IMG/VR virus record: IMGVR_UViG_3300044700_000019
Coordinates: 1 to 34,175 of that record
DNA length: 34,175 nucleotides
Reading direction: 5' to 3' (one strand)
Origin: a virus
A program made the position numbers and the translations under genes. Shown here one piece after another: positions 9,901 through 34,175 of the stretch. Numbering within the stretch: position 1 is the first letter of the stretch; each line of letters opens with the position of its first letter. Under the pieces are notes generated by a model that made no database searches, had not been told where the DNA came from, and was given only the letters and a program-made list of their open reading frames with translations.

Positions 9901-10222
9901 TGTTTAGATTTTCCAAACCAATTTGATTCTTGGCTAGAAGGATAATGTGATTGTAGACAAGATCTTGTTGACCTTCTCTTTCAGACTTATCTCTTGTATC
10001 AGATATGTCTGCACACATGTATCCTTCTAGACCTAGAATTGGCTTAATGCCCTTTGCTTTTGCAATACGGTGCAGTTCCCTATGCCCAGATAAAGTACCG
10101 TGGTCAGTGATGGCAATTGCTGGCATCCCTAACTCAACTGCACGGTCAACGTATTCTTCTGGAGTAGCAATCCCATCAAATAAACTAAAATGGGTGTGGA
10201 CATGTAAGCCTACGTAATTCAT
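6947..10222 (-). CDS. dnaE: DNA polymerase III alpha subunit (DnaE type)
   Basis: This 1091-residue replicative polymerase has an N-terminal PHP domain with metal ligands in place: H7-x-H9 (LHVHTH), D40-H41 (ITDHGTLSG) and later TPDCHHV. The C-family palm follows: GRGSSAGSL, the catalytic pair in FPDIDTDI, and the third acid in KIDALGLKTL. After the fingers come a helix-hairpin-helix-like region and a C-terminal OB fold (KMASLTLADTSRDLHSITVF). Length is near bacterial DnaE. The intact PHP site suggests possible proofreading, as in some actinobacterial DnaE1. There is no separate DnaQ, clamp or clamp loader here, so host factors are probably used. It starts three bases after the SSB-like gene. 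Confidence 0.96.
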   Translation of the reverse strand: MNYVGLHVHTHFSLFDGIATPEEYVDRAVELGMPAIAITDHGTLSGHRELHRIAKAKGIKPILGLEGYMCADISDTRDKSEREGQQDLVYNHIILLAKNQIGLENLNKISELSWTDGFFKKPRFDFTILEKYKEGIIVTSACPSSVLVKALEEEEFALAKKYISWFKERFEDDYYIEVMPHNEAHINKYLIELADEFGIKVVVTPDCHHVDSSQKEVQEFKLLMNTHGKFVKDTTYEKSKKKTDMMERLDYLYGEDRQITFNKFDIHLLSYEEIKAAMESQGIDRPDIYSNTMLLADTVEDYGIQEGLDLLPVQYKNPDKELAKAALEGLVERGLSENQEYLDRLEEELQIIKDKKFAPYFLVVSNMINWAKKEEIMVGPGRGSSAGSLVCYALKITDIDPIEHDLLFFRFINPERNDFPDIDTDIQDTRREEVKDYLVRQYRHVASIATFLQFTGKGIVRDVARVLNIPLSDVNKVLKTVDTWDDFCTSKSTREFREKYPEVEIYGEQLRGRIRGTGIHAAGVVTAKEPIFRYAPLETRSSTGSDERIPVVGVDMEEAERIGLIKIDALGLKTLSVLKNTTDIIKERDGKKIDLLKIKMDDANVYQMLSDGYTKGVFQCEAAPYTNLLVKMGVKNLNELAASNALVRPGAMNTIGKDYVDRKHGRQNISYTHQVLKEFTEDTYGCILYQEQVMQACVHLGGMSMSEADKVRKIIGKKKDAKEFDQFKEKFVEGASKFITPNAARDLWHDFEAHAGYSFNKSHAVAYSTLSYWTAWLKYYYPLEFMYSVLKNEKDKDARTEYLIEAKRMGISVKLPHINDSDIDFKIEGKGIRFGLSAIKFISDKIGERYISARPFNSYKELEEFTFTKGNGVNSRALQALRVIGAATFNDNPRNDQEIKENLYEYLNLPEFNITIPSHYYAFIQDIVDFEEKGSYIFMGMVKSIKRGTGWSRVEVLDKTGSVGIFDDENTTIETGRSYLVLCNDNRIVSFIPSDEIKESSHALVKFLSYKQLPYKDDEMFVVSFKPRITKTGKKMASLTLADTSRDLHSITVFPTSFAKAYMSIEEGKSYKFDFGKTKDGTVTLEDVHVG

Positions 10223-12094: not shown

Positions 12095-12103
12095 ATTATA
12101 CCT
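12095..12103 (-). promoter_or_regulatory. -10 box seven bases before a start codon
   Basis: The 14-base gap between the DnaB stop and the next gene reads AGGTATAAT then ATGAATT and ATG on the minus strand. The TATAAT is consensus. The position would place the transcript start at or one base before the ATG, and no Shine-Dalgarno is present. It lacks the TG of the extended form and has no clear -35, so it is the weaker of the candidates. Confidence 0.4.
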
Positions 12104-13322
12104 ACTTATCTTCAAAATCTTTATATCTATAGTATCCCTTGTCAAAATCACACTGGACTAAGAAGTCTCCCATAAAACCATTACGGTTCTTTCTAAAAGC
12201 GCATTCAATGATATCACTATTTGTAGCACGACCAAGTGCTAAAACCCAGTCTGCATCATATGCAATCTGTCTAGACCAAGCAGTTTGACCTAGGGTAGGA
12301 ACTCCACTAAGATCATTAACATCGTCTGGTGTTGCAGATGAGATAGCGATAATTGGAACCTCTTCACCAATAGCCATAAGTTTTAGTTCTCTTGAAAGGT
12401 TCTTCATTCGTACCGTTTCATTATCTGACTTCTGATTAGGAGCCATCAACTGTAGATAGTCGACAATTACAAAGTCTGGCTTATACTGATCAATCTTTCC
12501 ACGAAGGACTGATGGATTGATTTCTCCGCCTTGGTCATTTGAAATAATGTGAAACTCTGGCTTACCCTGCAGATGCTTTGCATGCCACATCTTTAAGGTT
12601 TCCATTTCAACTTCACCATTGCTGAGTTTTCTATGAGACCAAAGTCCCTCACCCATAATTGTGAAAACACGATTACGAACTTCTGTCTCTGACATCTCAA
12701 GAGATATTACAAGGGGGCTCTTACCCTGTTTCCAGGCCTGTACAGCGAAGTAAAGAGCCATCCATGACTTTCCTATACCTGGATATGCTAGAAAGACTCC
12801 TAGGTGCCCTGGCATAATTCCAGAAGGAAGATAGTTATCAAACCCTGGTAGATTAGTCTTAATTCCAACATGGCCTGCTGCTTGCTGAATCTTTAAGTTT
12901 TCAAAGTATGCAACTGCTGATTCAAGATCAGTAACATCGATATCACGAATTGCTGAAGTATTTTTCTTTAACTCTGAAGTCTGAGTAATTAAGTTATCTA
13001 GTGCTTTGTTTCCCTGACCCTGCTGAACATCTCCAGCAGCAGATCTAAGAATATCTTTTAGGCTATCATTTAGGTATTCTGTTTGTAATTCTTCAAGGTG
13101 ATGCTTTGTTGAACCAACACCTGCAACAGGTTCAAAGTCACGAAACTTTTCAACAACAAGGTTTACTGGAGGCACAGAACTATTGTGTTCAAAATAGTTT
13201 CTGATAAACTCCCAAAGGTCTGTATGAGTTCTTAGAAGATTATCTACATTGGCTTGCAGTAGAACATGAACCTGCTTGTCTTGTAAGACTGCAGATATTA
13301 CCTTTGCTTCAGTGTTATTCAC
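12102..13322 (-). CDS. dnaB: Replicative DNA helicase, DnaB type
   Basis: A 406-residue RecA-fold hexameric helicase. Walker A is at about 179-186 (AYPGIGKS), the catalytic glutamate at E209 (SLEMSE), Walker B at 285-288 (VIVDYLQLM), and a C-terminal segment RKNRNGFMGDF matches the DnaB-family motif near the arginine finger. The N-terminal 150 residues are helical and shorter than in bacterial DnaB. The start is GTG at 13322 with AAGGAG seven bases upstream, overlapping the previous gene by eight bases. It unwinds DNA ahead of the phage DnaE and works with the DnaG-type primase encoded just downstream. Confidence 0.95.
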   Translation of the reverse strand: MNNTEAKVISAVLQDKQVHVLLQANVDNLLRTHTDLWEFIRNYFEHNSSVPPVNLVVEKFRDFEPVAGVGSTKHHLEELQTEYLNDSLKDILRSAAGDVQQGQGNKALDNLITQTSELKKNTSAIRDIDVTDLESAVAYFENLKIQQAAGHVGIKTNLPGFDNYLPSGIMPGHLGVFLAYPGIGKSWMALYFAVQAWKQGKSPLVISLEMSETEVRNRVFTIMGEGLWSHRKLSNGEVEMETLKMWHAKHLQGKPEFHIISNDQGGEINPSVLRGKIDQYKPDFVIVDYLQLMAPNQKSDNETVRMKNLSRELKLMAIGEEVPIIAISSATPDDVNDLSGVPTLGQTAWSRQIAYDADWVLALGRATNSDIIECAFRKNRNGFMGDFLVQCDFDKGYYRYKDFEDK

Positions 13323-14380: not shown

Positions 14381-14517
14381 TTCCCCTCCAATGAATCGTT
14401 TGGTGGATTAAAAAATTTTCTATTTCCGCAAAGCATGCAATATGTTTCTAGGTGCATAGGAGAACTATACTGTCTGTCAACAAACATTCTTCCCTTACAT
14501 CTTGAACATCTTAGCAT
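14326..14517 (-). CDS. 63-residue zinc ribbon protein
   Basis: The ATG at 14517 overlaps the stop of the tail gene upstream as TGATG. A TTG one codon earlier is unlikely as the start. The protein has a clean four-cysteine zinc ribbon, C4-x2-C7 (CSRC) and C27-x2-C30 (CMLC), in its first half and a basic helical tail (KWLLKKEALKAK). Its last part overlaps the HTH gene by 55 bases in another frame. Small zinc ribbons like this are frequent in actinobacteriophages, with no known function. It may bind nucleic acid or a host transcription component. Confidence 0.78.
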   Translation of the reverse strand: MLRCSRCKGRMFVDRQYSSPMHLETYCMLCGNRKFFNPPNDSLEGKWLLKKEALKAKATISPL

Positions 14518-14960
14518 CAATTTGGAATGCCAATTACTATGATGTTTAGTGCAACCGTTACATCCCCAGTTTCATTAAATGTTACTACGCCCTCAAGTTT
14601 TGTGGTGCTTACAGTTTTTAAAACAACTGAAACATTTTTACCAGCAGAAGTGTTTGCAACATTTAACGGTGTGGCAACTGCAATAGGGGTATACTTAAAA
14701 GCAGTATTAAAGTCATAAGAAAAGGCAACAGAGTCTCCCTTTGTCTTGCTTGCGCTGTTTACAATCTCTTTATATCCACCAATTATTTTTGCATCTGATG
14801 TTCTTGCGCTTTCTTGCCTGTTAGTACCAGCGACATCCACAGTAACATATTTTGAAAGGGTGGTTGGTGTGGCTGCAATTAATTTATTAAGAGATTCTAC
14901 AACTGTATACAGATATCCAACATCTAGTGGTTGGCCACGCTCAGGTAATGGAATAGTCAT
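14517..14960 (-). CDS. Minor tail protein / tail tip or fibre protein candidate
   Basis: This 147-residue protein has a helical N-terminus (DVGYLYTVVESLNKLIA) followed by a Ser/Thr/Val-rich beta domain with many short strands, as in phage fibre tips. It is the last structural-type gene of the tail block. The ATG has no Shine-Dalgarno, but an extended -10 (TGGTATAAT) lies exactly six bases before it, overlapping the stop of the preceding gene. It may be expressed separately from the rest of the tail. There is no receptor-binding signature, so the role is inferred from context and composition. Confidence 0.65.
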   Translation of the reverse strand: MTIPLPERGQPLDVGYLYTVVESLNKLIAATPTTLSKYVTVDVAGTNRQESARTSDAKIIGGYKEIVNSASKTKGDSVAFSYDFNTAFKYTPIAVATPLNVANTSAGKNVSVVLKTVSTTKLEGVVTFNETGDVTVALNIIVIGIPN

Positions 14961-14966
14961 ACTACT

Positions 14967-14975
14967 ATTATACCA
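14967..14975 (-). promoter_or_regulatory. Extended -10 promoter candidate, leaderless geometry
   Basis: The minus strand reads TGGTATAATAGTAGTATG. This is a perfect extended -10 (TGG plus TATAAT), six bases, then the ATG at 14960. The expected transcription start is the A of ATG. The element overlaps the stop codon of the upstream tail gene, and no ribosome binding site is present. It is nearly identical to the sequence before the oxygenase gene at 5499. Confidence 0.55.
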
Positions 14976-21420: not shown

Positions 21421-22076
21421 TATGCTTCTTCCAAAGAAATAGAGACATTCCAAAAGTCATGCTTCTGTCCTCTTTTTGCAACAGTATAATCAAACTTTGA
21501 AATATATACCTCTACTATTTCATTGTATTGGTTTAGGTGTCCATATGCTGCATTATTATCCCCAAAATTATTATACTTATCGTAGGCTAAAAACATCCAG
21601 AAAGATCCAGTGTGATTTTCGTACCAGTCAAGAAGTTCTCCTCCCCCTGCACCACCATCTACGGTGTACTGCTGAGGTGCTGCTGTAGGGGTCCCTGAAG
21701 CCCCTATAAGCGCACTTTTGCCTGTTGTGGTGTTAAAGTCTGGCCTTAATGCAAAAGCCCTTGAGGGCAGTTCATCCCATGAAAAATCAAAGTTCATCTT
21801 ATCAGCAATGTGGTATGAACGCATATGCCCATTAATCATTCTTTCTCTTTTTTCTATTCGGTTTGGGGTAACCTTAATCTCAGACCTATTGTGATCTGAC
21901 AGAATTAAAAATTCATCTATTGTTGCTGGGTCAGTAACAGAACCTGGATCTTGTCCAACTTCAAAACCATTTGGGACATATAGTCCATTAACAAGAGTTC
22001 CAGGATTATTAGAAAACAAAACAGCCTGTGGACGACCATACTTTCGTCTACCTGTCATGTATGTTGAAGTAGCCAT
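21420..22076 (-). CDS. Distal tail (Dit-position) minor tail protein
   Basis: This is a 218-residue protein directly after the tape measure gene, with its ATG overlapping the tape measure stop (TAATG). That is the usual position of the distal tail protein that caps the tube and carries the hub. The sequence is beta-rich, with a central part reading KMNFDFSWDELPSRAF and a late aromatic section (GSFWMFLAYDKYNNF) ending in a strand VEVYISKFDYTV. Similar proteins are found after the tape measure in actinobacteriophages. Dit identity is inferred from position; the sequence alone is not diagnostic. Confidence 0.75.
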   Translation of the reverse strand: MATSTYMTGRRKYGRPQAVLFSNNPGTLVNGLYVPNGFEVGQDPGSVTDPATIDEFLILSDHNRSEIKVTPNRIEKRERMINGHMRSYHIADKMNFDFSWDELPSRAFALRPDFNTTTGKSALIGASGTPTAAPQQYTVDGGAGGGELLDWYENHTGSFWMFLAYDKYNNFGDNNAAYGHLNQYNEIVEVYISKFDYTVAKRGQKHDFWNVSISLEEA

Positions 22077-25000
22077 TATATTCTAGTCCCTCTCATTCTT
22101 TGTGAATCTATCTGCTGTATTTGTGCAATGACAGTTCTGGCAATTTGATCTGGGCTTGCATCAGACTTAACATTAACACTTAGGTTATAATTATACACTG
22201 AATCTCCTACGCTTGAACCTGAATTGATTGCCTTCATCTTATCTGTACCGTGGCTATTTACAGCATATCTGCTCATTACAAATTCTCCTGGAGTTAGCAT
22301 TGCTGGAACTGTATCAGTTCCTCTTGCAAACCCTCCTGCTGCAAAATATTTAGGAACTAGACCTCCTCGTGAAAGACCACCAGTTCTTCCTTTGTAGTAA
22401 GCAGCAAGTTGATCTGCTCTTGCGTCTGCTGCTTCTTTTGCCTTAAATCTTGATATTGAGTTGACATGGTCTTGTATTGCTTTTGCTGCTGCGTCTGCTG
22501 CTTCTTTTGCTTTTATTTGTGCTGCTATAGATGCTGCTCCGATGGCCCCACTTTCTCCTGCTGCCAATTTAGTTGGAACAACACCTACGGTGGCCGTTAA
22601 CTTGGCTAACGCAATTGCTGTTGCTTCATCTGCTGCTTTTTTATCTGCTGCTGCTTTTAATGCAAGTGCAGCATCATCACCACCATAACCCTTTACCCAA
22701 CCCTTGTTGTCATCCCAACCATAATCTCCAATAGGCTTGTCTGGCTTCTTCCATCCACCCTTACCATCTGAAATCCATGCAGCGCCTGGTTGTTTTGCTG
22801 GATCAGTTACTGGTGGTGTAACTGGTGGTGTGACTGGTGGCAAACCAAGTGCTGCTCCATATGTAGTAATTATATGCTGAGTAATAGTTATAGACTTATC
22901 TTTAATATCATCATAAGATTTCTTAATAGAATCCCATGCACCCTTTATTGTTCCAGAAACTGAATTAACATTAGCAAGGGCTAAAGCAAGATCTCCCTTT
23001 GCAAGTTTTTCTGCAGCCTGTGCAGCCTTTAATGTCAAGTCCCACTCTGCTCTAGTCTGTCCCTGAATAATTCTGTTCTTATCATTTGCAGTAATTTGTG
23101 CTGCTAACAAATCACTCTGTGACTGTAGCGGAAGCAACTGATCATTAATTGCCTTAAGTTTGTTTTGTTGATCTAGTAATGTTCCAAATGTAATCTTAGC
23201 AATGGCATCTGTCTTAACTTGAATTGCATCAAGTGCTACCTGTCTAGATTGCTCTAGCGCATAGATAGAGTCTTGGATTTCAAGGATTTGCTTATCTACC
23301 GCTGCCTTTTTGAGTTCTAAGTCGTAAGTCTTCTGACTGATATCCCACTGCTCTTCCTCAATTTCTTTCTGAGACTTTCCGCTAACTCCACCACGAAGAC
23401 TACCAACCTCATTCTCTCTTGCTTTTTGTAAAGCATCTTGTGCGCTGGTTGCATAGTTTGCTGCATTGGAGGCTCGCATATCTTGAATTGCTTTTGCTGC
23501 TCCTGAAATATCTCCTTGTGAAAGGGCATCTGCCAAGCCAAGTTGCTGTTGCTGTTGGCTAATAATCTGCTGATTAATTTCAGAGACTTTTGTTAATGCT
23601 TCTTGTTGCTTATCATATTTTTCATTGATTGCTTCTGCAGCCTTGTTCATGACATCTAGGTCATGAGATAGTACTGCAGATCTTTCTTGTAAAGCCTGGA
23701 TTGGTCTAGTAAAGTTAAGTTCAGCACTTCTTGTTAACTTCTCAATATCTCTTTGCTTCTTTTCAATTGGTCTAGTAAAGTTTTCTTCAATCTTTCGTTG
23801 ATCTGCATCTACCTCTTTTTGCATATCATCAATTTGAGATTGAGTTTGGTTAATAGCATTTTGAGCAATCTTTGCTTGACTATTTAGATCTTCCATCTTG
23901 ACCTGGAGGCCAGCAAAGGTGTTTCCTTCTTTATTAGTAAGAGTATTTTCATCAATCATCTTATATGCATCAAACATTTCTGCTGCAGCATTTGCTGCAT
24001 TAATTATTTTTTCTTCTCTTGTTTGAGTAAATACAAGTTCAATAATTTTTCTTTCTGGTATATCTTCTATCTGTGAAAGCAAATGATTAAACTCATCCTG
24101 AGCATCTTTTGCAAGAGTACCAAAATTGTCCATACCATTAATCAGGGTGTCTAGCATTGCTGGGTCGGTAATTGCAGCACGGATTGCATCGGCGCTCATG
24201 CCAGCCTGTTGCATCATTGCTACGACTTCTGGAATTCTCTTTTGGTTGTCTGTAGTCTTTTGCAAATCTTTTTGACCAGCAACTGCTCCGTTGATCTGGT
24301 TTCTAATTCTTGCCTGCTTAGTTAGAGCAGCATTTGTTTCTAGTTCTGCTTTTGTTACCTTACCTGTAGCAATAAGAGTCTTATAGTTTTCATCTGCAAG
24401 CATTGTCTGAATATCTAGTTCATCAAACCCTAGGGCAAGGAGTTTTCCTCTTGCTGCAATTTCCTGTTTTGCCAATGTAAGAGACTGAAGTTGTGCCTTA
24501 TTGTAGTCTCCAATGATAGCCTTTTTATATCCCTGCTCCATGTCTCTACCCTTTTGGGTGAGAACGGTATCTCCTACTTTAAACTTCTGGTACTTAGTAA
24601 CCATCTTTCCAGTTTCAGGATCTAACTGGGTATACTTTTGCTTACCTTTTTTCTTTTTTACATCTGCTGCAGTTGCTGTATAAGCAAACTTCTTTAGGTC
24701 TTTTGTATCTAGCCCAGCAAGGTAGTCTGTAAATTGACTGGTCTGACCCATCTTAATTAACTGCTGCTCAAGACCACTAAACTTGTTTGCAATAGCCTTG
24801 CTTCCTGTTGCTGCGATGGCTCTTTGTAGTTCTTTAAATCCGCCTGCTGCATCAATTGCAGAGTTACGAACATTGCGAAGACGCTTCATTAGTTCGTCGT
24901 AAGTAGTGTCTCTGTCTGTTTTAGGGGTTTCAACAACTGGAAGTCCTGTCTTAGGATCAATTGACGGGTCAAGGTACGGTGTTAGGAGTGCATTTGCCTG

Positions 25001-28000
25001 ACCGCCTCGGCCTAGACCATTATACTTTGCAATCAAAGCATCTCTTGCCATCGTGTAAGCAACACTACCTGCCACAAGCAATCTTGTGTCGTCACCCATT
25101 GACATCTGAGTATTTACCCAAATTTCTCTTTGTATCTTCAACTGCTCATCACTTATCTGGTTTTGTGATGCATATGTTACTACTAAATCTTGAACATACT
25201 CTATCTGTCTTTCTCTTGACATTTGCTGGAAGATTGCCATTCTGTCAGCATCATTTTGCAATGCTTTAATAGCAGGAGATGAAGCAATGGCGTCACTTTT
25301 TGCTTGTTCTAATAGGAAGTTTGCATCTTCTTTTTGTTTTGCTTCTTTTTCTTCCTTTGTCTTTGGTTCTTTTTTACCAGACTTCTTATCTGCTTCATCT
25401 TTTGCAGCCATTGCTTCTTTAATTTTTTCAACAGCCTCTTGTCTTTTTCTTAGTTCTTCAAGGAAGGGTGCCCCACCTGCTAGAAGAAGTTCCATGTCAA
25501 TAGTGACTCCATCTAAAGATTTAATGTTTGCTAAAGATTCCATCATTGCATCAAATTCTGCTGGATCTTTTTTATTTAAAACAATGTACTGAACAAGATT
25601 TGAACCAAGGTCTTTATTTGTAAAGTCTGAGAACATATTAAATAGTTCCTTCATTTTTCCTTGTCCATGCTCTTGAATTGAAAGTCTTATTACCTGATCT
25701 AACTGGTTAAGTTTTCCTGCAAATAGATCCATCATCGCAATTCCTTCGTCAGGAGAAAGGACTTTTCCTCCAACAAGAAGTTCCATTGTTGTCTGAAGTC
25801 TTTGTGCCTCAAAGTTGCTCTGTAGACCATTGGGTATAAAGTTATCATTGTCATCCCAAGTTCCAAGTTTTCCAAGATTTCTTGATTTTTCTAAGAATGT
25901 TTTTGAAGCCTCTTCTTGTGCTGTGCCAACGTATGCATTTTCAACAACTGCTTTTGATGAGTCAAAGAATGCATCTTCTTTATCTGCCTGTGCACCCCAG
26001 ACACTGTTGCTCTGGTTTCTCTCCCAGTCTGCTTGAGCGGTAATAATTTGATTAAGAATTGCATTATTCATTACTTGAGTATCAGTTTTTTCTTCAGCCA
26101 CTAGTGTTTTAAGTTTTCCTTGTAGTTCTAGTTTTTTCTCTAAGTTTTTAGTAGATTCTATTTCTACTTCTAATTTTTTCTTTTGTGTTTCATATTCTAG
26201 GGCAACTTGATCAGCCAACATAGTTGCTAGTTCAAGATTATTAATATTGTATGCAGCAATTGCAGCAACATCTTTTCTTCTTTGTGTCCAGGATGTGTCT
26301 TTAGATTCAGCGCTGGCTCTTAATTTTACGTTTCGGTTATTGGCGTTTGCCAATAGCATAAGTCTTGCTTTTACTGGATCTTTTTTAAGATCCTCTCCCT
26401 CTGGGCCAAGGATAGTATTCATTTGTCCAATTACTTGCAGCGCAACGCTTTGTTTTCCTATTGACAGGGCTAGTGCTTGAGCAATACTGTCTGCTTGTTT
26501 TTTATCTATTACGCCATCTGCAATTGAATTTGCTAATTTTAATGATAGATCATCAACGGCTTTTGACTCACCAAAGTCTTTTACATTTTTATTAAATGTC
26601 TTCTTTAAATCTTTTCCTTCTTTATCAGACATGTACTTTTTGCCAAATGGGTCTGGTGTTCTATAGTCTTCATTATATTTTTTATACTGAGAACCTCTTC
26701 TTCTTCTCTCCATAATTTGAGAGGCGCCAACTTTTCCAGTCATCTCCCCCATCTTTTTCATGCTCTCTCTTGTAGCAGATGTTTGGATTGCAAATTTTCC
26801 TGCTTCGGCAGCCATCTTGTTAAAGTGTTGGTTGAGCATGTATGCTCCTGCGCCTACTGCCATAATTCCTGCTGCTGCCCAACCTACTGGACCCATACCT
26901 GCAAGCATAGGTGCAAACTGAGCAACTGTTGCTGCTGTTCCAAGTGCTGCAGTTACCTGTGGTGGCGCTCCCATGGCTCCTGCTGCCATCGTTGCCATAC
27001 CTAGTGCGCCAGTGGCCTTACCAGAATACTTTCCAACCTTTTCTCTACGCATGCCACGTTTCTTCTTTGTGATTTGCTTTTGAGTCATCGTGGTTGGTTG
27101 CTTCTTGCCTTTTTCATCTAGTTCTGGATCAAATAGTAAGTGTCCCTTCTTGTCCATGGTGTACCCTGGGTTTGCATCGGTACCATCTCCATACGCTTCT
27201 GCTAATGCCTGGTCTTTTGTATATCTCTTTTTACCTGTTTGGCTAAGGTCACTGCCTGCTGCAAGTGCTGCATTTTGCTGTGCAAGTTCTCCATTCATTT
27301 GCTCTCTTAAAAACTTTTCTCGTTCTTGTAGTTCAGTTATTTCTTCTTGAGACATTGCTGTGTCTATTGTAGATCCATGAATGTCTCCAGTAGTTCCTAC
27401 GATTGCATCATTAAGATTACCTGTTGTTATAACATTGTCCAAGTTATCTGTCTGTGCTGGAATGATATCTCCAGTTACTTTTGCAATCTCATCTGTTTGG
27501 TCTGCAACTAGTACTGTTGAGTCTGCTGTATCTTCTGTACCCTCAACAATTCGTCTTAGTCCATCGCCTTGCTCTTGTGTTCCGTTAGAAATAGCCTCAG
27601 CACGTTTCTTTCTTTGTCTGTCTACAGACTTGTAAACCTGTCTTTCATCCCGCAATTCTGGCGTGTCAAGATCATCATAAAAATCCTTATTTCTAGTATC
27701 TATCTTATCATTTGGTGGTGTGCCTGGTGGTGTGCCTGGGGCTTTAGGTACAGCAGCATCACCAAGTTTTGCAGCCTGAGAAGAGACTTCTGCTTCACCT
27801 TCTTGCAAACCAATAGCAACTCCTTCTGCAATATCTTTACCAACTTCAATTCCATCTGTAGAAGGAGACTCTGTTTTTGCACCCTTCTTTACACCCCTTG
27901 TCGCTGCTTTACCAATCTTTTCACCTTGTGCTTCAGCATCTGCTTCTGCTTTTGGAGTAGCCACAACAAGAGGGGCTAATTCATCTTCTACGTTTTGATC

Positions 28001-31000
28001 AAATACTCCAAGTCTTTTCTTTCTTCCCGCTTCTCCACCAATTGCTCTACCGCCACCTGGAAATAAGTTTTTAGGTACAGATGTTACCCCGTCTGGTAGT
28101 GGAATCTCTCCATTTCTGTATCCTTCCATGATCAGGTCTTGTTGTTCTTGGCCAACGCCACTCGATCTTATTCCTGAAACATTATTAGAAGATCTTCTTG
28201 ATGCTGCTACAACAGTTGGATCTAGTCTAGGATCATTAAGGGCATCTTCTCTAATTGTCATTAAGTCTGTATCACTCATTTGACCAGACGTATTATTCTT
28301 AGCAAAAGTTCTTAGATGTTCTTCGTAGATTGCATCTAATTGTCTTACTTTTTCAGCATTGGCATCGACATCATAGCCAGCATTCGTAAGGCTTGTTCTC
28401 CACTTTTCAATTGGATCTAAATTAGTAAATTCATTAACAAAGGCGCCAACGCTTGCTGTTCCTGAGTCTAGTTGCTTGTTTAGGTCCATAGTAATTCCCT
28501 GAATACCTGCAGCAGAGACTGGTCTAAATTCTGGCGTAATCGGGGTCTTTGGTTTTCTTGGGTCACTATCTGGAAGATTATTTGCCCAGTCTGCTCCACC
28601 TTGTATTAACTTGACTCTATCAGAAACTCTTTTACTTTGGCTAGACATACGCAATGCTTCGTCATAAGGAACTGCTGATGATGTTTCTGTGTGTGCAAAA
28701 GTTTTTGCTTTCTTTTGATTTCCATGTGTATCTAGTGTGTCAAAAGCATTTGATGAACCAAGTGCCCTACTCTTTAAGAAATCCTTTATTGCATCCCCAC
28801 TAGCATTCCTATCTGGCACAGCAGTAATTGCTGCTCTTGCTTCATCAAGCATTCTGCTTCGCCAACGATTCATAGCCTGTGATTGTGCTTCCGTAATTTC
28901 CTCACCAGATGCTCTAGCAAACTCAATTATTCTCTTAACTCCCGCTTCTCCAGTAGAGATTGATCCTTCTATAAGTCCCTTGACTCTCTTGTCAAAATCT
29001 TCCCCACCAGATCCCAGAAATTCTAACTTCATCTTTGCTGCTCTAGTTTCTAGATCACTTCCAGAAATTCCATTACCTTCTATGCTTGTTGATTGTGAAT
29101 ACTTTTTAACTGCACCAGTCATAATTCCAGCAACAAGTTGTGGATTTTCCTTAACCATATCTTTTGATAGAACAACTTCTCCAGGTGTAAGCATGGCTGG
29201 AACAGTATCTTTATTGCCTGTCCCTGGAACAACTCCACCGTCTGCAAACTTTGGCAAACCAGATACTGCACCCTTTGGTCCTGGAACAGCATTAAATAGT
29301 GATGGAGAACCAGAGGCAAGCGCTCTAGCCTGTGATGCGGCATTTAGATATGCTGCTGCAAGTGCATCTACCGATGTCTTTTCTACATTAAATGTTGAAA
29401 TTAAGTCTTTATGAGATAAATGAAGTGCATGAGTTTGTGCAAGGTTTTCTGTTTCTGCTTGAGTTAGATAATCAAAACCGCCACCAAGAACATTGTTTTG
29501 TCCATTAAGTTTTGCAACTCCACTACGAAGCATTGCAAAGAACTTGATAAGGTTTGCAACACCGTTAGCAACAAGACCAACTGTCATCAATACAACTGGA
29601 GCAATTCCTCCAATGACTCCAATAAAACCAACCACAAACTTTTTAGTTCCATCACTAAGATTGTTAAACTTTTCTAGCATTTTTGCGGCAAATTGAACAA
29701 CTGGTGTTACTGCTTCTAGGAATGCTTTTCCAATAGGGATAAGTTGTAGTTTAACATTTTCAAGTTGCTTTTGGAACTTTACTCCAACAGCATCTTCTAC
29801 CTTACCCAATTCTCGTTCAGACAAAATAGCAAGTTCTTCAACCGTTGCTCCAGCAAGTCCAAGTGCTCTTGCTGCCTGTGAAGAATCTTTTGTTACGTTT
29901 TGAAATAATGTTGATAGACGAGCAAACTGAAACTTACCAAACATTTGTTCAATGGCTCTTGCACGGTTAAGAGGATCAAGTGTATCTAGTGCTCTTGCAA
30001 AACCAATAACAGTACTTTTTAGGTCTCCAGCATTAGCATTAACAATACCCTTTATGTTGATACCAAGATCTGCAAGGAATTCTGCTGCCTTCTTAGAAGG
30101 ATTAATCATAGAAGCAAGACCAGACTTAAGTGCGTTAGCACCTTCTGATGCATTAATTCCACCTTCTTTCATTGCGGTCATAAAGAATGCAAGATCTTCT
30201 ACAGATCCACCAAGTTGCTTTACAACTGGACCAGCCTTTGGAATTGCAACTGTTAAATCTTCAATAGATAAAACTGTTTGGTTTTCAACTGCGTTAAGGT
30301 AGTTTATTTTACCTGCAAGTTGGTCTGCAGAAATACCAAAAGCATTTTGAAGAGAAATAGTTGTCTCAAGTGCCTGTTGTTGTTCTACTTGACCAAGGAC
30401 AGAAAGCCTTGTTGCTTGTGTAACTTGTGCCTGTAGATCTGCACCCTGAAGACCCATTGCAGCAGCGGAGGCAGCCATTTCCATTGTGTCTTTAGCAGCA
30501 ATACCAAACTTTGTAAATTCTTTTGCAAGCAATTGAATTTCTGCAACCGCTTTGTCGGTATCCCCCATACCTGTTGTTAAGTCACCGTAAACTCTTGTGA
30601 ACTTAATTGTGGCTTGTTCCATTTCTCGAAACACCTTGGCTGCTGTGGATCCAAGAATTGTAAGAGGAATAGTCAAACCAACCATCAACTGGCGACCAGC
30701 CCACTGAGTATTCTTACCAAAGTTTAGGAGTTGAGTTGATCCTTGCTTTAATAGTTGATTTAAGAATTGCTGTCTTTGAGCAGCCATCTGAGTTCTTGTG
30801 GCATAGTCAGCATACTGACCATTGACCATTTTAAGATGCTTTGGAACAACTTGAAGAACTTTTACAAACTCTCCGTTGGCATTTGTTAGTTGAACATATT
30901 GTGTTTGTAGAGTTTTAACTCTATCTTTCATTGCCCTCTTTAGGACATCTTTTTCTTGTGCAAAAAGACCCTTTAAGGTTTTGCTGTTCATTGTTGCTGC

Positions 31001-31291
31001 AGCAGCCGTGTACCTAAAGTACTGACTCATGCTCAACTTATTCTTTTCTAGGGAATCAGTGAACGCTGTGGTACTTGAGGCAATGGTTTTTTGTGATGCT
31101 ACAAACTTTCCAGTAGCATTGATTGACTGCATGAGTTGTGAATTTAAACCCTTTTGTGCATTTGCAGCAGCGACATTGCCTTCTGTTAGGGCTTGATTAA
31201 ATCTGCTAAGTCCAGCCTGAAGCCTTCTTAGTTGAGCAAGAGCATCACTAGTGTCAAAATGTATACCAATATTAGCATTTACATCAGACAC
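22076..31291 (-). CDS. Tape measure protein (TP901-type core), very long
   Basis: This 3071-residue protein sets tail length. Residues about 205-560 form the TP901-type core (FREMEQATIKFTRVYGDL, then EFTKFGIAAKDTMEMAASAA). Hydrophobic segments lie at about 552-588 and 1427-1484 and may enter the host membrane. Long coiled coils occupy about 2430-2740, with the phrase NFTRPI repeated. A motif DTVPAMLTPGE occurs at about 695-705 and again near the C-terminus. Proline repeats (PPVT and PPGT) lie in linkers. The start is GTG at 31291, with stops just upstream in frame and a weak, distant GGGG. At about 0.15 nm per residue the tail would be near 460 nm; this ratio is textbook, the result is inference. 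Confidence 0.96.
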   Translation of the reverse strand: MSDVNANIGIHFDTSDALAQLRRLQAGLSRFNQALTEGNVAAANAQKGLNSQLMQSINATGKFVASQKTIASSTTAFTDSLEKNKLSMSQYFRYTAAAATMNSKTLKGLFAQEKDVLKRAMKDRVKTLQTQYVQLTNANGEFVKVLQVVPKHLKMVNGQYADYATRTQMAAQRQQFLNQLLKQGSTQLLNFGKNTQWAGRQLMVGLTIPLTILGSTAAKVFREMEQATIKFTRVYGDLTTGMGDTDKAVAEIQLLAKEFTKFGIAAKDTMEMAASAAAMGLQGADLQAQVTQATRLSVLGQVEQQQALETTISLQNAFGISADQLAGKINYLNAVENQTVLSIEDLTVAIPKAGPVVKQLGGSVEDLAFFMTAMKEGGINASEGANALKSGLASMINPSKKAAEFLADLGINIKGIVNANAGDLKSTVIGFARALDTLDPLNRARAIEQMFGKFQFARLSTLFQNVTKDSSQAARALGLAGATVEELAILSERELGKVEDAVGVKFQKQLENVKLQLIPIGKAFLEAVTPVVQFAAKMLEKFNNLSDGTKKFVVGFIGVIGGIAPVVLMTVGLVANGVANLIKFFAMLRSGVAKLNGQNNVLGGGFDYLTQAETENLAQTHALHLSHKDLISTFNVEKTSVDALAAAYLNAASQARALASGSPSLFNAVPGPKGAVSGLPKFADGGVVPGTGNKDTVPAMLTPGEVVLSKDMVKENPQLVAGIMTGAVKKYSQSTSIEGNGISGSDLETRAAKMKLEFLGSGGEDFDKRVKGLIEGSISTGEAGVKRIIEFARASGEEITEAQSQAMNRWRSRMLDEARAAITAVPDRNASGDAIKDFLKSRALGSSNAFDTLDTHGNQKKAKTFAHTETSSAVPYDEALRMSSQSKRVSDRVKLIQGGADWANNLPDSDPRKPKTPITPEFRPVSAAGIQGITMDLNKQLDSGTASVGAFVNEFTNLDPIEKWRTSLTNAGYDVDANAEKVRQLDAIYEEHLRTFAKNNTSGQMSDTDLMTIREDALNDPRLDPTVVAASRRSSNNVSGIRSSGVGQEQQDLIMEGYRNGEIPLPDGVTSVPKNLFPGGGRAIGGEAGRKKRLGVFDQNVEDELAPLVVATPKAEADAEAQGEKIGKAATRGVKKGAKTESPSTDGIEVGKDIAEGVAIGLQEGEAEVSSQAAKLGDAAVPKAPGTPPGTPPNDKIDTRNKDFYDDLDTPELRDERQVYKSVDRQRKKRAEAISNGTQEQGDGLRRIVEGTEDTADSTVLVADQTDEIAKVTGDIIPAQTDNLDNVITTGNLNDAIVGTTGDIHGSTIDTAMSQEEITELQEREKFLREQMNGELAQQNAALAAGSDLSQTGKKRYTKDQALAEAYGDGTDANPGYTMDKKGHLLFDPELDEKGKKQPTTMTQKQITKKKRGMRREKVGKYSGKATGALGMATMAAGAMGAPPQVTAALGTAATVAQFAPMLAGMGPVGWAAAGIMAVGAGAYMLNQHFNKMAAEAGKFAIQTSATRESMKKMGEMTGKVGASQIMERRRRGSQYKKYNEDYRTPDPFGKKYMSDKEGKDLKKTFNKNVKDFGESKAVDDLSLKLANSIADGVIDKKQADSIAQALALSIGKQSVALQVIGQMNTILGPEGEDLKKDPVKARLMLLANANNRNVKLRASAESKDTSWTQRRKDVAAIAAYNINNLELATMLADQVALEYETQKKKLEVEIESTKNLEKKLELQGKLKTLVAEEKTDTQVMNNAILNQIITAQADWERNQSNSVWGAQADKEDAFFDSSKAVVENAYVGTAQEEASKTFLEKSRNLGKLGTWDDNDNFIPNGLQSNFEAQRLQTTMELLVGGKVLSPDEGIAMMDLFAGKLNQLDQVIRLSIQEHGQGKMKELFNMFSDFTNKDLGSNLVQYIVLNKKDPAEFDAMMESLANIKSLDGVTIDMELLLAGGAPFLEELRKRQEAVEKIKEAMAAKDEADKKSGKKEPKTKEEKEAKQKEDANFLLEQAKSDAIASSPAIKALQNDADRMAIFQQMSRERQIEYVQDLVVTYASQNQISDEQLKIQREIWVNTQMSMGDDTRLLVAGSVAYTMARDALIAKYNGLGRGGQANALLTPYLDPSIDPKTGLPVVETPKTDRDTTYDELMKRLRNVRNSAIDAAGGFKELQRAIAATGSKAIANKFSGLEQQLIKMGQTSQFTDYLAGLDTKDLKKFAYTATAADVKKKKGKQKYTQLDPETGKMVTKYQKFKVGDTVLTQKGRDMEQGYKKAIIGDYNKAQLQSLTLAKQEIAARGKLLALGFDELDIQTMLADENYKTLIATGKVTKAELETNAALTKQARIRNQINGAVAGQKDLQKTTDNQKRIPEVVAMMQQAGMSADAIRAAITDPAMLDTLINGMDNFGTLAKDAQDEFNHLLSQIEDIPERKIIELVFTQTREEKIINAANAAAEMFDAYKMIDENTLTNKEGNTFAGLQVKMEDLNSQAKIAQNAINQTQSQIDDMQKEVDADQRKIEENFTRPIEKKQRDIEKLTRSAELNFTRPIQALQERSAVLSHDLDVMNKAAEAINEKYDKQQEALTKVSEINQQIISQQQQQLGLADALSQGDISGAAKAIQDMRASNAANYATSAQDALQKARENEVGSLRGGVSGKSQKEIEEEQWDISQKTYDLELKKAAVDKQILEIQDSIYALEQSRQVALDAIQVKTDAIAKITFGTLLDQQNKLKAINDQLLPLQSQSDLLAAQITANDKNRIIQGQTRAEWDLTLKAAQAAEKLAKGDLALALANVNSVSGTIKGAWDSIKKSYDDIKDKSITITQHIITTYGAALGLPPVTPPVTPPVTDPAKQPGAAWISDGKGGWKKPDKPIGDYGWDDNKGWVKGYGGDDAALALKAAADKKAADEATAIALAKLTATVGVVPTKLAAGESGAIGAASIAAQIKAKEAADAAAKAIQDHVNSISRFKAKEAADARADQLAAYYKGRTGGLSRGGLVPKYFAAGGFARGTDTVPAMLTPGEFVMSRYAVNSHGTDKMKAINSGSSVGDSVYNYNLSVNVKSDASPDQIARTVIAQIQQIDSQRMRGTRI
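22282..22336 (-). repeat. Second copy of the GG...GTDTVPAMLTPGE motif in the tape measure gene
   Basis: The minus strand encodes a glycine-rich turn followed by DTVPAMLTPGE near the C-terminus of the tape measure protein. The same phrase, with related DNA (AGCATTGCTGGAACTGTATC on the plus strand here, AGCATGGCTGGAACAGTATC in the other copy), is encoded at 29171..29239, almost 7 kb away. Two copies in one tape measure suggest a repeated structural element. Confidence 0.6.
22809..22842. repeat. Short tandem repeat encoding PPVT units
   Basis: Three adjacent copies of a roughly 12-base unit (plus strand ACTGGTGGTGT with A or G) encode PPVTPPVTPPVT in the tape measure protein, just before a tryptophan- and glycine-rich C-terminal segment. 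A similar 12-base repeat at about 27713-27740 encodes GTPPGTPP. Both look like flexible linkers and are candidates for copy-number change by slippage. Confidence 0.6.
29171..29239 (-). repeat. First copy of the GG...DTVPAMLTPGE motif in the tape measure gene
   Basis: This stretch encodes DGGVVPGTGNKDTVPAMLTP and the following GE of the tape measure protein at about residues 684-707. It matches the motif near the protein's C-terminus. It separates the N-terminal TP901-type core from the long middle of the protein. Confidence 0.6.
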
Positions 31292-31317
31292 TATTCATGA
31301 CACCCCTATTCATTTTT

Positions 31318-31629
31318 TTATTTTGATGTAAGCAATGCTGTAGGATCTGTAAGTTGAATACCAGATGCTGCATCGATTACTGCGTATACTGTTGGCAAGT
31401 CGATATTATCTTCTAGTGCCTCACGAGTAACTTCTTCCTTTACATATTGCTTAAATGCAATTTCTACACAGTCTAAAAGAACATTCATTGACTCATCGTT
31501 ATTATCTGATACATCTGAAAGTTCCTGAAATCTTTTCATAAAAGGCTTAAGCAAAGAAATCTTCAATGGTCGTACATCAATTACGGTTCCATCAATAAGA
31601 GTTACTTGCTTAGTTGTTTGTTCTGCCAT
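31318..31629 (-). CDS. Short tail assembly chaperone (G-like paralog)
   Basis: The start is the ATG at 31629 behind GGAGG with five bases between (an earlier in-frame TTG overlaps that site), giving 103 residues. The core matches the N-terminal half of the following-in-coordinate 227-residue protein: LIDGT, PLKI, FM, KQY, then IDL and AAGI in the same order. It ends after this domain (DPTALLTSK). Position directly before the tape measure gene is that of tail assembly chaperones, which coat the tape measure protein during tail tube assembly. It has its own promoter-like element upstream and a strong ribosome binding site. No frameshift extension was found. Confidence 0.8.
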   Translation of the reverse strand: MAEQTTKQVTLIDGTVIDVRPLKISLLKPFMKRFQELSDVSDNNDESMNVLLDCVEIAFKQYVKEEVTREALEDNIDLPTVYAVIDAASGIQLTDPTALLTSK

Positions 31630-31655
31630 TATTTCCTCCAATAGGTTGTTAATTA

Positions 31656-31664
31656 ATTATACCA
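31656..31664 (-). promoter_or_regulatory. Extended -10 promoter candidate before the short chaperone gene
   Basis: The gap between the two chaperone genes reads TGGTATAAT on the minus strand, a perfect extended -10. Transcription would start near 31649, giving a leader of about 20 bases that contains GGAGG. No good -35 is seen. It would allow the short chaperone and perhaps the tape measure gene to be transcribed independently of the long chaperone. Confidence 0.55.
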
Positions 31665-31680
31665 TAGCGACAGGCTTATT

Positions 31681-32364
31681 TTAGTCTATTTTTTCGTAGT
31701 CTAAGCCCAAGCCAATACCAAATCCAGCGCTTTTTGCATTTTGACCTTGAAGGGCAAGGATGTCTCTTGAGTCTGATGTTTTTCCACCACTATAAACCCT
31801 AGCCTTCATATCTTCCCAAGCATTACTTTTATTTGCATTTTTATCTAAGTCTACACCCTGCATTGCTGCCATGAATTTTTTTGTAGAATAGTCTTCTTCT
31901 CTTTTTATATTTAGTATTGCAGTTATCTCTTGCATTGATAAAGATCTTTCTAGTTCATCAAAGTCTTTCCAGATCCCCAGCAAAAAAACTTCTGATTCTA
32001 GTTTTGCCAAATCAAGATCTTCCCAGGTTGCTCCAGACTTAACTGCCTGATCCTTTACTCCTTCATCAGACTTCTCATCTACTTTAATTCCTGCAGCATA
32101 ATCTAGCAATCTATATATGTTTTTTAAATCTATTGCATCTTCAAAGTCTTCAATTGATCTTGAGATCTTTGGCATATACTGTTTCATGCAGTTCATTCCG
32201 CAAATTGCAAGAGCAGATATAGCCTCGATGTCGCCCTTTGCTGATCTTACACCTTCAAAGTCATCCATGAACTTTCTTAGATACTTAATCTTAAGAGGAG
32301 ATATTTCTAACTCAGTTCCGTCAACTAAATAAATAATTCCAGTTTTGTATATTTCTGTAGCCAT
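31681..32364 (-). CDS. Long tail assembly chaperone (G domain plus C-terminal T-like domain)
   Basis: The start is the ATG at 32364 (227 residues, MATEIYKTG); a longer in-frame reading runs into the terminator and is not credible. Residues about 10-105 match the short chaperone downstream (LVDGT, SPLKI, FM, KQY, IDL, AAGI). The C-terminal part (AKLESEVFLLGIWKDFDELE, then SLSMQEITAILN and KKFMAAMQGVDL) is the kind of sequence found in the extended tail chaperone of actinobacteriophages. There is no Shine-Dalgarno before the ATG; an extended -10 lies exactly six bases upstream, so the message may be leaderless. It acts in tail assembly and is not expected in the virion. Confidence 0.82.
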   Translation of the reverse strand: MATEIYKTGIIYLVDGTELEISPLKIKYLRKFMDDFEGVRSAKGDIEAISALAICGMNCMKQYMPKISRSIEDFEDAIDLKNIYRLLDYAAGIKVDEKSDEGVKDQAVKSGATWEDLDLAKLESEVFLLGIWKDFDELERSLSMQEITAILNIKREEDYSTKKFMAAMQGVDLDKNANKSNAWEDMKARVYSGGKTSDSRDILALQGQNAKSAGFGIGLGLDYEKID

Positions 32365-32370
32365 TATATA

Positions 32371-32379
32371 AGTATACCA
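32371..32379 (-). promoter_or_regulatory. Extended -10 promoter candidate, leaderless geometry, after terminator
   Basis: The minus strand reads TGGTATACTTATATAATG. The extended -10 (TGG plus TATACT) is followed by six bases and the ATG of the long chaperone, which has no ribosome binding site. It starts in the tail of a rho-independent terminator, so it would restart transcription directly after the tail tube transcript ends. Confidence 0.55.
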
Positions 32380-32380
32380 A

Positions 32381-32412
32381 ACAGAAAGGCCCAACCCCGA
32401 AGGATTGAGCCT
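32381..32412 (-). terminator. Rho-independent terminator after the tail tube gene
   Basis: On the minus strand AGGCTCAATCC, loop TTCG, GGGTTGGGCCT form an 11-base-pair stem with two G-T wobbles and a stable UUCG tetraloop, followed by TTTCTGTTT. It lies 19 bases after the stop of the major tail protein gene. It is the only convincing terminator in the window and sits where a highly expressed structural transcript should end. Confidence 0.85.
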
Positions 32413-32430
32413 CTCATATATTTAGTTGTA

Positions 32431-33048
32431 TTATGCTGCGCCGACTGTGCGGTCTACGATCTTACCGTATGATCCGTTGTCGTTTGGAAGAAGACGGAAT
32501 GATACTTCGAACATTGTCGCTTCGTCACGCTTTGCTGATACTGATACGCTCTCAATTGAAAGTGCACGGTATGCAACGTAAACACGCTCGATATTCTCGG
32601 TTGCGTCTCCAGTTCCTGGTCCAACTGCAATCAGACCACGCTCTACTGGCACATCGCCAATATCGCCTGCTGAAAGATTAAGTGTTGGGTTACTTGAAAC
32701 TGTTGAGAGATCTTCGTCCTTACCTGCAAGGGCAAATAGAAGGTTCTCTAGTGTTGATTCTGCGAATGTAGTATTTAGGTTTACTTGCATGCCTTGCTTA
32801 AATAACTTAGCAACGTCAAGTACCTGGTCTACTGCTACTTCGCCGAAATCTGGCTGGAATTGGATTTCCAAACCATTCATTGTATATCCAACGTTACGGA
32901 AGTCAGAATCTGCTGTAAGGGTATCCTTATATGAAGTTCCTGCTACGAACGCTGGTCGATCTGCGTCTGCAAGTGCGCCTGCTTCGTATGTGAAGAGTGC
33001 TGCTGCTCCAACGATAATATCGTTAGAACTACCACGTGTATATGCCAT
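32431..33048 (-). CDS. Major tail tube protein
   Basis: The start is the ATG at 33048 behind GAGGTG with six to seven bases between, giving 205 residues (MAYTRGSSND). The sequence is a mix of strands and short helices of the tail-tube type, with a beta-rich core (VGYTMNGLEIQFQPDFGEV), a long loop, and a closing section (YRALSIESVSVSAKRDEAT, then MFEVSFRLLPND). It is located between the neck genes and the tail chaperones, the standard position. It has a promoter upstream and an intrinsic terminator downstream, as expected for the most abundant tail protein. Codon choice appears to shift toward more G and C (for example CGT, CTT, GGT) than in its neighbours, fitting high expression. Confidence 0.88.
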   Translation of the reverse strand: MAYTRGSSNDIIVGAAALFTYEAGALADADRPAFVAGTSYKDTLTADSDFRNVGYTMNGLEIQFQPDFGEVAVDQVLDVAKLFKQGMQVNLNTTFAESTLENLLFALAGKDEDLSTVSSNPTLNLSAGDIGDVPVERGLIAVGPGTGDATENIERVYVAYRALSIESVSVSAKRDEATMFEVSFRLLPNDNGSYGKIVDRTVGAA

Positions 33049-33094
33049 GTATTTCACCTCTTTTTTCTTTATAGATTAAAGGGCTTGTTTCCTC

Positions 33095-33110
33095 ATGATA
33101 ATTATATCAT
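33095..33110. repeat. Inverted repeat overlapping the tail tube promoter
   Basis: The arms ATGATA and TATCAT face each other across four bases, and the -10 box lies inside them. A wider pair (AAAGGG at 33078-33083 and CCCTTT at 33111-33116 on the plus strand) flanks it, though not symmetrically. It could be an operator or simply an AT-rich promoter region. Confidence 0.4.
33101..33109 (-). promoter_or_regulatory. Extended -10 promoter candidate for the tail tube gene
   Basis: The 68-base gap upstream of the tail tube gene holds TGATATAAT on the minus strand, an extended -10 with consensus TATAAT. Transcription would start near 33094, leaving a leader of about 46 bases that ends with GAGGTG. 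There is no clear -35. This is the longest gap in the tail region and precedes the gene expected to be most strongly expressed. Confidence 0.6.
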
Positions 33111-33116
33111 CCCTTT

Positions 33117-33668
33117 TTAGGGGGCTATAGACTCAATAATGTCTTGCATCTGGTGATAGTCGTAGTCGATGATTATCTTGTTACCGCCATATGTTCGGGC
33201 TGTTCCAAAATCAACAAGGTCTCTGACTTCCTCTAGTTGGTATACCTTAAAGTTATGGAAGTAGAACTTGCAGGTCATGCCACCTATTGGTGCATGGTTT
33301 CTGGCCCAGACATTTAGATCTTCAGCACTTTCATCTCCTCGGTCCATAAGTCTTAGCACTGATTCTTGAACTTTGATCATGCTTTCAGTTACATCATTTT
33401 GGGTAGCATAAAAATAGTACAAAAGTTGTTCACATTTAATGTGTGGGAAAGGAGATCTTCTCATCCTAATTAGTCTGTCATATACAGCAACCACTCCTTG
33501 ATAAGATGCTCTCTCTTGATTAATAACTACCCATTGCTCAGTTAAATCATCAAGTGTGTTCGGAAGAGTAGGGAAAAATGGTATTGCAATCTCTGTATTG
33601 TTAAATATTTTTTCTTGAAGGTATGTGTTTACCCATAGTCCTGGGGTGTTTAGTGTTGATGTTGACAT
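33117..33668 (-). CDS. Tail terminator / tail completion protein candidate
   Basis: A 183-residue protein encoded between a neck protein and the tail tube protein, where the tail terminator (the ring that ends tube growth and joins it to the head) is normally found. It shows alternating strands and helices (ASYQGVVAVYDRLIRMRR, then CEQLLYYFYATQNDVTESMI) and ends with strands (KFYFHNFKVYQLEEV). There is no catalytic motif. Its ATG overlaps the previous stop as TAATG. The role is inferred from gene order; the fold is not verifiable by eye. Confidence 0.7.
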   Translation of the reverse strand: MSTSTLNTPGLWVNTYLQEKIFNNTEIAIPFFPTLPNTLDDLTEQWVVINQERASYQGVVAVYDRLIRMRRSPFPHIKCEQLLYYFYATQNDVTESMIKVQESVLRLMDRGDESAEDLNVWARNHAPIGGMTCKFYFHNFKVYQLEEVRDLVDFGTARTYGGNKIIIDYDYHQMQDIIESIAP

Positions 33669-34175
33669 TATGATACCATCCCCGCACTTGCTACCCAGCG
33701 AGATCCAACAGACATTCCTGTTGGTCTGCCACCTCTTTTACCAGCAGCCAAGTTCTTCTTATAAACTGTTGGATTAGCAAAGTGCTTATCAATACCGCTT
33801 GATCTTAAAAATGCTTGAGTAAAGTATCTACCAAAGAACATGTCCCAAACATTCTCAAATTGTCCTTGTGTATTTCCTCCAGGGTTTTGAACAACAACTG
33901 GTCTCTTTGTATAGACAACTTGTCCACCAACCTCAAACCTCAAGGTCTCTCCATTAATTGGTTTAATAACAACTGGCTGACCAAGTTCCATAACCTTTGC
34001 CTTGTTTTCAAAAGGAACTCTTGATCCATCCTGAATAGTTTTCGATTGCTTAAAGTCTGACATAAATGATAGACCAAGGTTGCTTATAGTAAACTTAATG
34101 TCAAATAGTCTTGCTGATGAACTTCCTGATTGACCCCACTCATAAACATGATGAAGTGTGTCGTAGCCTACTCTT
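33668..34175 (-). CDS. Neck or head-tail connector protein (5' end outside the window)
   Basis: The reading frame stays open from the stop at 33668 to the right edge; the ATG at 34063 is internal. Upstream of it the frame encodes protein-like sequence (HHVYEWGQSGSSSARLFDI, then FTISNLGLSF) with no stop, so at least 168 residues are visible. The C-terminal part has a basic, glycine-rich tail (KRGGRPTGMSVGSRWVAS). The location just before the tail terminator candidate suggests a head-tail joining or minor structural protein. The true start and the family are not visible. Confidence 0.72.
   Translation of the reverse strand, partial: RVGYDTLHHVYEWGQSGSSSARLFDIKFTISNLGLSFMSDFKQSKTIQDGSRVPFENKAKVMELGQPVVIKPINGETLRFEVGGQVVYTKRPVVVQNPGGNTQGQFENVWDMFFGRYFTQAFLRSSGIDKHFANPTVYKKNLAAGKRGGRPTGMSVGSRWVASAGMVS

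Follow-up and report, generated by a model that had tools for sequence, protein, structure and literature searches.

Two tail assembly chaperone genes with separate promoter-like elements appear to replace a programmed frameshift in a clade of uncultured, probably actinobacterial phages

Production of the tail assembly chaperones G and GT by frameshifting is a textbook case of recoding. PMC5009743 describes this frameshift as widely conserved among long-tailed phages, with the exception of T4. In lambda and TP901-1 both products come from one gene by a −1 frameshift (PMC5009743 and PMC4493119), whereas the locus described here encodes an in-frame GT and a separate G. The window (the whole stretch of DNA analysed) is a virus record of 34,175 bases, in which the chaperone genes and their neighbours all lie on the minus strand in the order major tail protein, long chaperone, short chaperone and tape measure. 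A first-pass annotation had proposed two separate chaperone genes, and both were confirmed at the positions given in Table 1.

Table 1. Features of the chaperone locus in the window.
Feature	Position	Strand	Details
Major tail protein gene, upstream neighbour	32431..33048	−	phrog_2175, E 4.3e-33 ('protein with Ig domain')
Terminator-like hairpin between the major tail protein and long genes	32388..32411	−	stem coordinates counted from the sequence
Extended −10 TGGTATACT of the long gene	32371..32379	−	from the sequence; 6 nt from ATG; leaderless-type promoter
Long gene, tail assembly chaperone with G and T fused in frame	31681..32364	−	ORF, 227 aa
Extended −10 TGGTATAAT of the short gene	31656..31664	−	from the sequence
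Shine-Dalgarno GGAGG of the short gene	31635..31639	−	5 nt from ATG
Short gene, separate G paralogue, directly before the tape measure gene	31318..31629	−	ORF, 103 aa; phrog_10504
Tape measure gene, downstream neighbour	22076..31291	−	ORF, 3071 aa

The long protein comprises a G part (approximately residues 1-99) and a T part (approximately residues 112-227). It matches phrog_10504 on residues 1-103 (E 1.4e-16) and phrog_10474 on residues 131-190 (E 2.8e-17), and it aligns to both the G and the out-of-frame T of Streptomyces phages, in agreement with the proposal that a G-like domain is followed by a T-like C-terminal domain. The short protein, whose gene starts with the ATG at 31629-31627, also matches phrog_10504 (E 1.6e-17); both families are without a named function in PHROGs. 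Compared by BLASTP as a single pair, the short protein and the G part of the long protein are identical in 31 of 94 columns (33%, E 1e-14), and with their shared family this upholds the suggested paralogy. The short protein is also 56% identical to the G of a frameshift-type locus (L108). As in lambda gpG/gpGT, TP901-1 gpG/gpGT and HK97 gp13, the two chaperones share a G domain and the longer one carries a T domain.

The identification as chaperones rests on homology to annotated phages, to G for both proteins and to T for the C-terminus of the long one, and on gene order. In tblastn searches the window proteins matched Streptomyces phage genes annotated as tail assembly chaperone. The long protein matched 132 records of a phage collection, 127 from Streptomyces phages and 5 from Rhodococcus phages, all below 60% identity; among the matches listed, which included three of the five Rhodococcus records, the latter covered the T part only. 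As for lambda-type G/GT, both genes are flanked by the major tail protein gene on one side and the tape measure gene on the other. The upstream neighbour has a weak match to phrog_885 (major tail protein, E 0.012) and occupies the position of the annotated major tail protein in the phages Circinus, Patelgo, Coruscant and JimJam, and residues 1-300 of the downstream protein match the annotated tape measure region of the same four phages (tblastn, 25-32% identity).

General profile libraries gave only weak signals. In Pfam, both the window proteins and a set of 47 G proteins (best E 0.001 for the latter) hit nothing but unrelated families, and these only weakly, with no convincing tail chaperone match. 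The one NCBIfam match of the short protein, to 'phage tail assembly chaperone G' (NF047360), was weak (E 0.058; 13.7 bits, where the cut-off is 25), and a PDB sequence search gave nothing credible for a tail chaperone. In AlphaFold models of the long and short proteins (mean pLDDT 75.0 and 73.6, respectively), the G part consists in both of two strands and four helices that follow one another in a shared order, and neither model has a Foldseek match below E 0.001. HK97 gp13 (2ob9) ranked second of 22 Foldseek matches for the short model, as a weak match (E 4.7). For the long model no tail chaperone was among the 50 of 119 Foldseek matches listed, and HK97 gp13 was found via VIA only, where it came third for the long model (Z 3.6) and second for the short model (Z 4.1). 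Because unrelated structures score as high, the likeness of the predicted models to the chaperone fold of HK97 gp13 is only suggestive.

Related loci were fetched from viral contigs with four queries, namely the long protein (80 loci, the best 80 of 93), the short protein (31 loci), a T alignment (80 loci, the best 80 of at least 526) and the G of L108 (80 loci, the best 80 of 157), with some contigs fetched more than once among the query sets. Together with the window and four Streptomyces phages, 276 loci were classed with G and T profiles. Two states were observed: a fused GT gene followed by a separate G (214 loci), and G followed by T in another frame (56 loci). The six others were five loci cut by a contig end (L013, L097, L185, L233, L237) and L194. 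Counted as distinct DNA, these amount to 159 fused and 34 frameshift loci. The two-gene layout, for which a search among related phages had been suggested, was found with nearly every fused gene: of 216 in total, 214 are followed by a separate G (both genes being spanned in 210), one (L013) is cut by the contig end, and one (L194) has that G broken. In contrast, no second G was found behind T in any of the 52 frameshift loci with at least 500 bases held after T, the other four of the 56 being cut. The long-protein query retrieved 79 fused-then-G loci and one cut locus, and the T query retrieved 66 fused-then-G loci, 12 loci with G then T, one cut locus with T then G, and one broken locus; the second G is therefore no effect of searching with the short G.

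The two states also differ in their slippery sites. In each of the 34 distinct frameshift loci, T is read in the −1 frame, and the last 9-18 codons of G are preceded by a slippery heptamer that is in frame (GGGAAAC in 27, CCCAAAT in four, CCCGGAA in two and GGGAAAT in one), where CCCGGAA was counted as a slippery site although it is no strict XXXYYYZ heptamer. These motifs are absent from 157 of the 159 distinct fused junctions, the other two (L240 and L242) having CCCAAAT in frame. Fused linkers vary in length between loci, and 17 of the 159 contain any XXXYYYZ heptamer in frame, which in 11 cases is AAAAAAN. In the window, G and T of the long gene lie in one open frame, rather than in different frames at a conserved slippery site, and a second G gene is present, rather than one G gene for both products.

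The first-pass annotation had reported a single A7 run, placed after the stop of the short gene. The run is real (31313-31319), though it overlaps the TAA stop rather than following it, and it is not the only one: on its coding strand the long gene has an A7 (31876-31882) and a T7 (31982-31988), both in the T part and both leading to stops in the −1 frame. Either gene might nevertheless hide a frameshift, with slippage on the long gene leading to an early stop and thereby to a short G, as happens in dnaX, or the short gene giving an extended product. In-frame XXXYYYZ heptamers are indeed found at codons 42, 79, 80, 126 and 161 of the window long gene, in addition to the 17 linkers, two of them with CCCAAAT, and to a GGGAAAC near the end of the short gene of L158. 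However, the linker heptamers, mostly AAAAAAN, differ between loci, and a separate G renders slippage needless. Moreover, no T-coding frame stands behind the window short gene, because only 26 nt separate the end of this gene from the start of the tape measure gene. We consider a hidden frameshift very unlikely. The GGGAAAC of L158, a possible relic, is in frame near the stop, approximately where frameshift-type relatives have their slippery site; a single such case among 159 short genes is too few to support relic slippery sites in short genes generally.

An in-frame fusion could also arise as an indel artefact of a frameshift-type gene. The loci come from metagenome contigs, and L194 does show a frame change in its short gene. 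Yet the same in-frame fusion recurs in 159 distinct sequences from many samples, with varied linker lengths, and it is accompanied by a second G and by a leaderless-type promoter. This breadth of loci refutes assembly error as the source of the fusion and leaves it a negligible chance.

Trees were constructed from 37 fused representatives (below 72% identity), 20 or 21 uncultivated frameshift loci and the four Streptomyces phages. When the Streptomyces frameshift phages serve as outgroup, both the tape measure N-terminus tree (96/99) and the T tree (99/94) gather the fused loci on a single branch. The T tree places the fused clade among the uncultivated frameshift loci, and the grouping of these loci as one clade is not rejected (p-AU 0.605, tape measure). 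The simplest reading of the sequences, given this outgroup, would be that frameshifting is the older state and was lost once. Taken together, the slippery G/T of the relatives, the second G confined to fused loci and the single branch support the proposal that gene duplication stands in place of the frameshift.

When did the duplication occur? In the G tree (99 rows, 103 columns), short G joins frameshift-type G (98/97) and long G stands apart (95/78), while short G alone is an unsupported group (53/0). A clade of long and short G is neither rejected (p-AU 0.27) nor shown. The grouping of short G with frameshift-type G suggests that the duplication is perhaps older than the fused clade; alternatively, a fast-evolving long G may be misplaced, since faster evolution can push it outward in the tree. 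Median dN/dS is 0.25 for the long G part and 0.15 for the short gene (151 and 128 sampled pairs, respectively), and 0.21 and 0.15 for the whole genes, values that indicate purifying selection on both and come from sampled pairs that share branches.

The same observations bear on whether the two proteins have divided their labour, such that duplication and fusion are real, no G:GT ratio is set, and the promoter difference concerns timing. The 33% identity between the two G domains of the window, their separate groups in the G tree and the faster evolution of the long G part would all fit such a split. Relatives with a single G, however, use one G domain for both products, short G stays close to the G of these relatives, and the separate G accompanies every fused gene that is neither cut nor broken at that point. 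Split functions are thus unlikely, and we favour the reading in which the two genes supply G and GT.

The first-pass annotation had noted an extended −10 immediately before the long gene, without a Shine-Dalgarno sequence, and a −10 of its own together with GGAGG for the short gene. Both descriptions hold for the window (Table 1), where no Shine-Dalgarno precedes the long gene, and both are kept in relatives. All 157 usable distinct loci have TGNTANNNT within 60 nt upstream of the long gene. Its distance to the start is 4-9 nt in 154 of them and 14, 15 or 21 nt in the other three, one of which (L080) has a Shine-Dalgarno and a GTG start. A Shine-Dalgarno of at least five bases precedes the long gene in just 1 of the 157. 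While counts of distinct DNA still include many near relatives, 33 of 36 representatives (below 72% identity) show the −10 at 4-9 nt as well. Before the short gene, TGNTANNNT is found in 159 of 159 distinct loci, farther upstream and never at 4-9 nt, and a Shine-Dalgarno of at least five bases in 145 of 159. Where several matches occur within 60 nt, the scan scores the last one, and nine short genes were therefore scored on TAACCT near the Shine-Dalgarno; the shortest −10 distances of short genes are such picks.

Other groups of starts seldom or never show the close spacing seen before the long gene. For frameshift-type G of uncultivated loci, TGNTANNNT was present in 30 of 30 with none at 4-9 nt, and a Shine-Dalgarno in 27; for G of the Streptomyces phages, both elements were present in 4 of 4, again with no −10 at 4-9 nt. 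The major tail protein gene of fused loci has TGNTANNNT in 11 of 149, none at 4-9 nt, and a Shine-Dalgarno in 148. Random ATGs have TGNTANNNT at 4-9 nt in 21 of 1271 cases and a Shine-Dalgarno in 93 of 1271. The promoter-like elements of the two chaperone genes also differ in quality, with a perfect TATAAT in 147 of 159 short genes versus 18 of 157 long genes, and a mean −35 match of 2.99 of 6 versus 2.04 of 6. The conservation of these elements, at different distances from the two starts, supports a promoter for each gene.

The first-pass annotation does not mention a terminator-like hairpin immediately upstream of the −10 of the long gene in the window. It has a 10-bp stem with two G-T pairs and a TTCG loop, and is followed by a T-rich stretch (32379-32387). 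Of 36 representatives, 30 have such a hairpin before the long gene (shuffled expectation 2.0); before frameshift-type G the count is 14 of 21 (shuffled 0.6). The interval from the long to the short gene and the 70 nt downstream of the latter were without one in 37 of 37 loci each. As no terminator was found between the two genes, long transcripts probably run into the short gene. An Rfam search of positions 30900-34175 gave no match up to E 1.

The long gene has the features of leaderless genes in Actinobacteria, a TANNNT box a few nucleotides before the start codon and no Shine-Dalgarno (PMC3898074 and PMC3160421). PMC3160421 gives a TA-like signal approximately 12 bp upstream of the start as the mark of a leaderless gene, common in Actinobacteria. 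According to PMC3898074, proteins from leaderless messages of M. tuberculosis have a lower median level, with no clear difference in the mRNA:protein ratio. As for the chaperones, lambda G and GT are reported at a molar ratio of 30:1; the tape measure protein is bound by G, whereas GT recruits the tail tube protein through its T part (PMC5009743). A permanent G-T fusion in TP901-1 leads to normal-looking but non-infectious particles (PMC4493119). The G:GT ratio matters for tails. From the TP901-1 fusion and the lambda ratio it follows that fusion of G to T should oblige a phage to obtain free G from elsewhere, and in the fused loci the separate gene is such a source.

We regard it as likely that these siphophages make G (short) and GT (long) from two genes, without −1 frameshifting, and may set their ratio at initiation. 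With one copy of G fused in frame to T, ordinary translation suffices for GT, and the other copy makes G alone. The GT gene, behind a terminator, would be transcribed from its extended −10 promoter with the start site on or next to the ATG, and the resulting leaderless message would give modest amounts of GT. The G gene has a −10 close to consensus and a strong Shine-Dalgarno behind what would be a short leader, and should give abundant G. The lower protein level of leaderless genes in M. tuberculosis, together with the roles of G and GT, points to few GT and many G. As in lambda, the tape measure protein would then be coated by G, while the few GT molecules would recruit the major tail protein. 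The G:GT ratio may accordingly depend on the strength of promoters and of translation initiation rather than on slippage, judging by the DNA sequence. That the clade lost a widely conserved frameshift and wrote the same stoichiometry into initiation mode, with rare GT from a terminator-insulated leaderless gene and abundant G from a near-consensus promoter and a Shine-Dalgarno, is a stronger statement, which we consider somewhat better than evenly balanced.

The nearest isolated relatives found are the Stanwilliamsviridae phages Circinus, Patelgo, Coruscant and JimJam, which infect Streptomyces and have homologous G, T and tape measure genes in the same order. They differ in having a single, leadered G, a slippery site of the sequence CCCAAAT or CCCGGAA, and T in the −1 frame. 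Their annotations place the G and T regions in two frames, name at least one of them a tail assembly chaperone, and join the two in Patelgo; the chaperone annotation of Rhodococcus phage Dorin is likewise joined from two pieces. From these isolated relatives the host of the window phage is likely an actinobacterium, and the uncultured phages of the fused clade are probably actinobacterial.

Separately read chaperone ORFs without an evident frameshift have already been reported for Microbacterium phages of cluster EA1, such as Phriends (PMC7302621 and PMC6856279). In Phriends, the one EA1 phage compared, gp15 and gp16 show no similarity (BLASTP E 6.2); G and T therefore look split there, unlike the duplicated G and fused GT of the window, and the chaperones of this phage were ruled out as the same solution. 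No description of a duplicated G with an in-frame GT was found among the open-licence papers listed. A further difference, from leaderless genes of Actinobacteria in general, is that in this clade two paralogues that form one assembly pair are initiated in different modes, in place of recoding. This natural experiment suggests that the G/GT frameshift is dispensable, via duplication, in-frame fusion and separate promoters, while sister phages kept it. It makes testable whether selection keeps the G:GT ratio or its coupling to one message, and provides a natural pair for leaderless versus leadered translation of paralogues. For annotators, an absent slippery site in such phages is no error.

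A second gene of the window has a similar start. The gene for a 147-aa protein at 14517-14960 (minus strand) is preceded by TGGTATAAT at 14967-14975, 6 nt before its ATG and without a Shine-Dalgarno, so this phage may use leaderless starts beyond the long chaperone gene. Elsewhere on the minus strand are genes that look like those for DNA polymerase III alpha (6947-10222), RecA (5947-6963) and DnaB (12102-13322).

Some related loci depart from the common layout. In L194, a frame change near residue 26 interrupts the short G gene (approximately 3905-4220), which points to either a sequencing error or a decaying copy. Extra genes of approximately 600-720 bases lie between the long and short genes in L047-L050, L068 and also L066; judged by their motifs, that of L047 is apparently a SAM methyltransferase and that of L066 apparently an HNH-like protein. 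Finally, a frameshift-type chaperone of this phage group, outside the 276 loci, was found on a 110-kb contig of a cyanobacterial metagenome bin (L282, CAINGU010000031.1), which is probably a phage contig binned wrongly or else points to a different host.
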